Shown: in pieces, positions 37,105 to 41,249 of the stretch | Position numbering within the stretch: the stretch's first letter is position 1 | Layout of the letters: each line of letters opens with the position of its first letter | Assembly: GCA_007556525.1 (NCBI GenBank) | Contig: SWJS01000001.1 | Coordinates: forward strand, 1 to 64,000 | Length of the DNA stretch: 64,000 nt | Direction of reading: 5' to 3' | From: Lysobacteraceae bacterium CU05-9 | GTDB lineage: Bacteria > Pseudomonadota > Gammaproteobacteria > Xanthomonadales > Xanthomonadaceae | Program-made: the position numbers and the translations under genes | The notes under the pieces: model-generated | What the model was told of the DNA's origin: nothing | What the model saw: only the letters and a program-made list of their open reading frames with translations | The model's database searches: none

Positions 37105-37503
37105 ATGACGCAAACAAATGACTTTGACGATGCCGCATTGCGCGCGAAGTTGACGGATGAACAATACAATGTGACGCGCTGCTCAGCGACCGAAGCTCCG
37201 TTCACCGGCGAATATTGGGATCACCACTCCGAAGGCGTCTATCACTGCGTGGTTTGCGACTCACCGTTATTCGCATCCGATGCCAAGTTCGATTCGGGAA
37301 CCGGCTGGCCAAGTTATTTCCAGCCGCTGTCGGTCGATCTGATCAAGGAAGATTTTGATGAGAGCTATGGCATGCGTCGCGTCGAGGCGAAGTGCGCGAA
37401 GTGCCAGTCGCATCTTGGACATATTTTCACGGATGGGCCGGCGCCGACTGGGCTGCGTTACTGCATTAACTCAGCTGCGCTGAGTTTCAAGGCGAAAGGC
37501 TAA
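37105..37503 (+). CDS. msrB: Peptide methionine-(R)-S-oxide reductase
   Basis: A 132-residue repair enzyme for the R epimer of methionine sulfoxide. The zinc-binding cysteines are Cys48 and Cys51 (CVVC) and Cys97 and Cys100 (CAKC). The catalytic Cys120 lies in [23 protein letters not shown] and [15 protein letters not shown] are typical. The ATG at 37105 gives the normal cytoplasmic length; an in-frame upstream start would add an unrelated stretch. The last four codons lie within the heptamer array described at 37491-37618. msrA is also in the window (44722). Confidence 0.95.
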
Positions 37504-37618
37504 AGGCCGAAGGCCTAAGGCTAATGGATCAAGTTTGAAAATCATCCGTTTCAAAAAGAATGCCTGGAGTTGTTCCTTAGGCCTTTAGCCTTAGGCCTTC
37601 GGCCTTAGAGCTTACGCC
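37491..37618. repeat. GGCNNAA heptamer-array inverted repeat
   Basis: The plus strand has five back-to-back heptamers from 37491 to 37525: GGCGAAA, GGCTAAA, GGCCGAA, GGCCTAA, GGCTAAT. The minus strand, read from 37618 down to 37577, has six: GGCGTAA, GCTCTAA, GGCCGAA, GGCCTAA, GGCTAAA, GGCCTAA. The arms pair over about 28 bases around a spacer of about 50 bases. Both arrays begin inside the last codons of convergent genes (msrB and the adenosyltransferase gene) and contain both stop codons. It could act as a two-way terminator, but there is no T run at the stem base. Confidence 0.85.
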
Positions 37619-38169
37619 TTCCGGCGTTCGTGCTGCCAAGTCACTTCACCGTGACCGCTGGCGCGAGCCAATACGCGCGCGAGAACGAAGAGCAGATCGC
37701 TCAAACGGTTCAAGTAACGGATGGCTTCAGAACGCACGTCTTCTTCGCGTGATAGCGCGACGGCTTCACGTTCTGCGCGGCGCACAACGGTACGCGCAAT
37801 GTGTGCACGCGCGCCGGCTTCGCCACCGCCTGGAAGAATGAATTCCTTCAGCGGAGGCAAATTTTCGTTGTATTTGTCGAGTTCGTTCTCGAGATGATCG
37901 ATGTCAGCGTCAAAAATCGCCGCATGCCCCGGAATGCACAACTCACCACCGAGGTCGAACATTTGATGCTGGATGCGTTCCAGCAATGCGCGGATGTCGT
38001 CGGGCACTTCAGGCGATGCGAGAACCAACCCAATGCAAGAGTTGGCTTCATCGACGGTGCCGTACGAGTTAACTCGCAGGGAATCCTTGCCTGTCCGTGA
38101 TCCGTCGCCCAGACCGGTGCTGCCATCGTCACCGGTGCGGGTGTAGATTTTGGAAAGGCGATTTCCCAT
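37612..38169 (-). CDS. Cob(I)alamin adenosyltransferase, PduO type
   Basis: A 185-residue ATP:corrinoid adenosyltransferase that makes adenosylcobalamin. Signatures are KIYTRTGDDGSTGLGDGSR near the start (ATP-binding loop), the SYGTVDEANSCIGL helix, and the C-terminal VVRRAEREAVAL with YLNRLSDLLFVLARV, the PduO/MMAB pattern. No cobalamin biosynthesis genes are in the window, so it probably acts on imported corrinoid. It is co-transcribed with the DUF6580 membrane protein, whose stop overlaps its start (TAATG). Its last codons form part of the heptamer array. Confidence 0.94.
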   Translation of the reverse strand: MGNRLSKIYTRTGDDGSTGLGDGSRTGKDSLRVNSYGTVDEANSCIGLVLASPEVPDDIRALLERIQHQMFDLGGELCIPGHAAIFDADIDHLENELDKYNENLPPLKEFILPGGGEAGARAHIARTVVRRAEREAVALSREEDVRSEAIRYLNRLSDLLFVLARVLARASGHGEVTWQHERRKA

Positions 38170-41176: not shown

Positions 41177-41181
41177 CGCTG

Positions 41182-41249
41182 AAATGGGAGAAAGGAAATG
41201 GGAAATGGGATGGACCATATTCCCTTTTCGTTTTTCCCATCTCCCTTTT
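41182..41249. repeat. AAANGGG heptamer-array inverted repeat
   Basis: The plus strand has four tandem heptamers (41182-41209): AAATGGG, AGAAAGG, AAATGGG, AAATGGG. The minus strand, read from 41249 down to 41222, has four: AAAAGGG, AGATGGG, AAAAACG, AAAAGGG. Units at the same rank correspond in both arms (the second starts with AGA). It lies between two convergent genes and its right arm ends at the rlmM stop codon. The T-rich right arm could also end transcription from the left. Confidence 0.8.

Follow-up and report, generated by a model that had tools for sequence, protein, structure and literature searches.

Facing heptamer arrays at the 3' ends of the convergent msrB and cobalamin adenosyltransferase genes of Lysobacteraceae bacterium CU05-9

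In the genome of Lysobacteraceae bacterium CU05-9, the convergent genes msrB and cobalamin adenosyltransferase each end in a tandem array of 7-nt repeats, and the two arrays face each other across the gap between the genes. They are best explained as paired heptamer microsatellites in the 3' UTRs of the two convergent genes, which would have originated by 7-nt duplication and whose hairpin may end transcripts in both directions or shield their 3' ends; we give this reading a probability of about 0.45. It is supported by the excess of arrays at gene 3' ends, by their strand bias, by a predicted 22-bp stem at the locus and by a scan of the gap that detected no canonical terminator.

The locus between msrB and the adenosyltransferase gene

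The features of the locus are listed below, with positions counted in the window, i.e., the whole 64-kb stretch of DNA that was analysed.

37105..37503, plus strand: msrB (SelR, Pfam), start codon picked by eye
37491..37525, plus strand: five GGCNNAA-type heptamers on the msrB sense strand, the first base lying 10 nt upstream of the stop codon
37501..37503, plus strand: msrB stop codon TAA, inside the second unit
37503..37606, no strand assigned: predicted hairpin, from RNA folding of each strand
37577..37618, minus strand: six heptamers, one of them degenerate, on the adenosyltransferase sense strand, holding its stop codon
37612..37614, minus strand: stop codon of the adenosyltransferase gene, within the outermost unit
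37612..38169, minus strand: cobalamin adenosyltransferase gene (Pfam Cob_adeno_trans)

The plus-strand array reads GGCGAAA, GGCTAAA, GGCCGAA, GGCCTAA and GGCTAAT, i.e., four exact GGCNNAA units and a fifth with one mismatch. The minus-strand array, read from 37618 to 37577, consists of GGCGTAA, GCTCTAA, GGCCGAA, GGCCTAA, GGCTAAA and GGCCTAA, of which five are exact and the second is degenerate. The initial annotation had described five and six facing heptamers of period 7 in inverted arrangement that supply the stop codons of both genes. All of this is borne out by the positions of the units and of the two stop codons, with the reservation that one unit on each strand is imperfect. None of the units contains GGG. 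Pfam confirmed the identities of both genes, and the array supplies nearly all of the coding sequence for the last residues of MsrB, KAKG. The window contains five three-unit matches, where dinucleotide shuffles give an expectation of 0.01; an origin by chance at this composition, which the initial annotation had considered, is thereby dismissed, and chance does not produce the array pair.

In the predicted fold, a continuous 22-bp stem joins 37503-37524 with 37585-37606, and two shorter helices extend outward from it. Each strand folds better than 200 of 200 shuffles (z -6.8 and -7.2), and the paired arrays make the strongest hairpin seen in the gap. The predicted hairpin has no U-run, and the combination that marks intrinsic terminators (GC stem, short loop, then U-run) was not found at the locus: a scan restricted to loops of 3-8 detected no canonical terminator-like site between 37504 and 37611. 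No Rfam 15 family scored above its gathering threshold in the whole window, and the five matches at the locus are all far below the gathering score. Since no canonical terminator was found here, the paired arms may themselves be a two-way transcript end; this, or protection of the 3' ends, would be their most likely role, and it is plausible, as the initial annotation had raised, that the pair ends transcripts from both sides.

Bidirectional intrinsic terminators are inverted repeats between convergent genes with an A-rich 5' arm and a T-rich 3' arm. The locus has a similar layout, but it differs from them in lacking the U-run, in its long loop and in arms built of tandem heptamers. The inner dinucleotides of the two arms agree in order at p 0.041 (one of ten such tests), and an alternative form of the arm-order test gives p 0.31.

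Heptamer arrays elsewhere in the CU05-9 genome

Further copies, for which the initial annotation had proposed a search, are present, and the repeat is not confined to the locus. A 24-mer AAGGC-type query gave 7 matches in the whole genome against 0 for its reversed control, a 17-mer query gave 17 against 1, and three-unit AAGGC matches occupy 10 places. Two more facing AAGGC pairs were found at C9:308633/308758 and C10:48837/48969. Reading of gene ends and a lag-7 scan revealed other heptamers at the same kind of position, namely AAATCTG, AAACCTG, AAACTTG and AAATGGG; the AAATCTG arrays have no G-tract and occupy the same kind of site as AAGGC. GAAATCN arrays give 21 matches at 9 places. Close convergent pairs on opposite strands also occur in this genome. 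In a list of eight facing pairs that was compiled by hand after the data were seen, the same unit is found on both sides in six (35% by chance, p 0.026), and in two facing pairs the units are unlike (AAATCTG vs AAGGC), for which poor pairing is expected.

Placement relative to genes was studied in a 734-kb sample comprising the window, C9, C10 and C11. All 21 strict lag-7 runs in this sample are noncoding or at a gene edge, and one Markov-3 control had none; with looser thresholds the Markov control was also positive (7 vs 27 real, and 24 vs 55 real). Lag-7 runs were present at 14 of 582 gene 3' ends, at 1 of 582 5' ends and in 0 of 582 mid-genes (Fisher p 0.0009), counts that are affected, like the reading of convergent ends, by a home-made gene caller that missed at least msrB. 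For no other period between 4 and 11 did the count at 3' ends exceed 2 in the same sample.

The arrays are also biased in strand. When 19 exact array places (10 AAGGC and 9 AAATC) were compared with open frames of 87 codons or longer, the AA strand began at a frame end in 16 cases, three of the accepted frames having only 87-89 codons; the opposite strand does so in 3 of 19 and random positions in 462 of 6000. A start at a frame end was defined here as lying from 15 nt before to 20 nt after the last base of the stop codon. The three places that do not fit are C1:378044, C10:48837 and C10:48969. At several array places the stop codon forms part of a unit. Automatic scoring of polarity, which the same gene caller affects, classed 19 of 27 as inward. 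Four of the eight misses were judged to be scoring faults (msrB skipped; two arrays taken as one; one array in contact with a gene on either side; one AAATCTG array that is half purines), and four are genuine (C9:202126, C10:48818, C10:69812 and C10:116964).

Canonical terminators were found at 8 of 20 array-bearing gene ends, and seven of these eight overlap the array end or lie at most 5 nt from it; a common order is therefore stop codon, array, terminator. At C9:126615-127515 and C11:30588-33549 and, by eye, at C8:443025, the terminator stem has as its foot the final unit of the array, which is partly degenerate. The 8 of 20 compare with 80 of 562 other ends when gaps are not matched, and with gap matching the excess is not significant (7 of 16 array-bearing vs 62 of 207 other ends, p 0.27); the omissions of the gene caller bear on these counts too.

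Other repeats were observed in intergenic positions. Elsewhere in the window, at 41177-41248, the unit AAATGGG forms another facing heptamer pair, which occupies most of a 72-bp convergent gap. Hexamer arrays of GTAGAG / GTTAGA type are located at convergent gene ends at C9:6706, C10:80198-80338, C11:81600-81850 and C11:107843-108084, and those of the last three gaps face inward. Also dispersed in the genome is a palindrome around TTTCAAAGGTTGAACTTGTGTCCATGGACAGAAGTTCAACCTTTGAAA, with 31 sites when as many as 3 mismatches are allowed in the core (among them L057-L075 at position 1501), in some cases between facing arrays, and short palindromes of the TGTCACAATTGTGACA type are repeated in intergenic gaps (e.g., C11:161052-161128).

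Relatives, other phyla and known heptamers

Among 299 genomes of the phylum, facing AAGGC arrays with a gap of 40-70 were found in CU05-9 only and in none of the 298 others; the outward version was found in 0 of 299. In relatives, none of which is of the same genus, the AAGGC-type unit is not enriched: the 24-mer matched 4 of 59 other genomes, with near-identical units, and its reversed control 9 of 59. An msrB match was obtained in 59 of 60 genomes, CU05-9 included. Thirty msrB loci are among the matches listed, one of them that of CU05-9; of the 29 relatives, 24 could be read and five were unreadable. No array was seen at msrB in the 24 relatives read, and conservation is therefore not seen.

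The architecture itself has a precedent in the family. Rehm et al. (2015, PMC4692102) describe GGGAATC heptamers in Xanthomonas that lie on the coding strand, mostly intergenic, within 50 bp of stop codons or overlapping them, and count 70 and 75 convergent pairs in the two genomes concerned; inverted pairs are there allowed to form stem-loops within a quadruplex view, and function is left open. GGGNATC was found in 15 of 59 relatives, 12 of these being among 35 other genomes of the same family, in a search whose reversed control was positive in 4 of 60 genomes. The repeat shared within the family hints at a kinship of CU05-9 with Xanthomonas. Two statements of the initial annotation, that it knew of no named repeat of this kind in the lineage and that its closest analogy, the heptanucleotide repeats of cyanobacteria, is not arranged as inverted arrays, are in part contradicted by these data. 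The arrays of CU05-9 share three of five features with the Xanthomonas repeat (period 7 in noncoding DNA, sense-strand placement at stop codons, convergent pairs). They differ in the unit, which at the locus is AAGGCNN with variable inner bases instead of GGGNATC, and, again at the locus, in lacking the four GGG tracts that a quadruplex would require. CU05-9 also has several unit types, and three consecutive GGGNATC units had 0 matches in its genome. The layout is thus already known from Xanthomonas, and the variation here consists in repeat units mostly without G-tracts. GAAATCN arrays occur in 3 of 59 relatives. TGAAATC and GGGAATC differ at two bases, and from this likeness TGAAATC may be GGGAATC with the G-tract lost and with site and strand kept.

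Two other published heptamers are comparable. The GGGGA(C/T)T heptamers of Nostoc have period 7 and are dispersed and mostly intergenic, with a different unit (PMC4692102). The TAACTGA direct repeats of marine Beggiatoaceae are also intergenic and of period 7, but are mostly directed at a downstream start codon, with one inverted case (PMC4679880). Literature searches, thin on subscription journals, returned no description of G-tract-free sense-strand heptamers at stop codons as a class.

Facing AAGGC arrays with a gap of 86-116 were found in at least 118 stretches across all GTDB species, and Acidobacteria, Bacteroidetes, Verrucomicrobia, Methylobacter, Chloroflexi and cyanobacteria are among the stretches listed. 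Eighty of these loci were classed with a crude longest-ORF caller: 15 have convergent neighbouring genes, 32 co-oriented and 4 divergent ones, while 21 are inside ORFs and 8 at contig edges. Twenty genomes from many phyla were hand-picked from those behind the 80 loci, each having at least one inward match by selection; in them the inward AAGGC pattern has 295 matches vs 2 for the outward one, with each overlapping match, and each strand of a pair, entering the count on its own. The reversed control of the outward search was positive in 2 of the 20 genomes, which may be the same arrays in another phase. The largest number of inward matches among the 20 genomes, 113 in about 4 Mb, belongs to the unclassified MAG Bin_7_3 (L122, L124, L141, L146 and others). 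The unit-order test of the arms was informative at 10 of 83 loci across phyla, and only the msrB/adenosyltransferase locus had p<0.05, uncorrected. In the other arm-order test 51 of 80 loci were heterogeneous and 21 had p<0.05, a result that overstates matching, as the shuffling breaks the array-then-core order.

Origin and possible role of the arrays

From the sequence, period, placement, polarity, unit variety and predicted fold described above, we infer an origin by slippage and a function at transcript ends. Tandem duplication of 7 nt would create arrays in 3' UTRs; inside a gene it would cause a frameshift, and between stop codon and terminator it would be tolerated. Each array extends from the stop codon into the intergenic region, AA-strand first, and different unit sequences are found at the same kind of site. 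Facing pairs would arise where each convergent gene has its own array, and a unit shared by facing arrays would let both transcripts fold into a long hairpin directly downstream of the stop codon. For msrB and the adenosyltransferase gene, the most likely role of such a hairpin would be to end transcripts in both directions or to shield their 3' ends. A general role of the hairpin is weakened by the two pairs of unlike units, by the weak arm test across phyla and by the p of 0.31 at this locus.

Nearly as likely as this favoured reading is a neutral one, according to which 7-nt slippage leaves microsatellites only where a frameshift is harmless and the hairpin is a by-product without a role. 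It accords with the absence of an array at msrB in the 24 relatives, with the difference of units between genomes, with the opposition of unlike units at two places and with the lack of a significant link to terminators. Frame avoidance alone would not lead one to expect the 14:1 ratio of 3' to 5' ends, the strand bias (16 vs 3 of 19) or the 295:2 polarity, although promoters may also keep arrays away from 5' ends. That the arrays are loading sites for Rho appears improbable. Rho prefers pyrimidine-rich, regularly spaced sequence, and the antisense of the arrays has both properties, so that Rho loaded there would stop transcripts invading the opposite gene; the inward polarity would put the pyrimidine-richer strand on any read-through transcript, but the AAATCTG arrays are poor in C.

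We regard as still more improbable that the arrays are G-quadruplex elements of the kind suggested for GGGAATC in Xanthomonas, even though the architecture is the same and transcript starts and stops are reported to be more frequent in repeats capable of forming a quadruplex than in control repeats (PMC4692102). With four GG tracts, AAGGC units could form a quadruplex of two layers at most; the unit AAATGGG does contain GGG. Against this stand the GGG-free units at msrB, the absence of threefold GGGNATC from the genome and the AAATCTG arrays, which have no G-tract at the same kind of site; a quadruplex therefore cannot be the common cause. There is equally little to recommend a remnant of a mobile palindromic element of the REP type, a class marked by a conserved palindrome and an associated RAYT transposase. 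The 31-site palindrome family (up to 3 mismatches) does lie between some facing arrays, but it is a separate family; of 19 palindrome sites examined together with their flanks, the majority lack an AAGGC array, and at the same tolerance the msrB/adenosyltransferase locus contains no copy of the palindrome.

Beyond paired 3'-UTR microsatellites at single gene pairs, it is conceivable, if doubtful, that heptamer arrays make up a general class of bacterial 3'-UTR elements. Period 7 and an inward, A/G-first polarity would define this class, units would be swapped between lineages while site and polarity are kept, and a process linked to transcript ends, not the quadruplex, would make and keep the arrays. 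The CU05-9 genome offers a natural comparison in this respect, having repeats at the same site and on the same strand as the Xanthomonas heptamers with units mostly free of G-tracts, and this lets period, hairpin, sequence or mere tolerance be weighed as the cause. The inward polarity in 20 genomes of many phyla is a simple rule that can be tested at scale.
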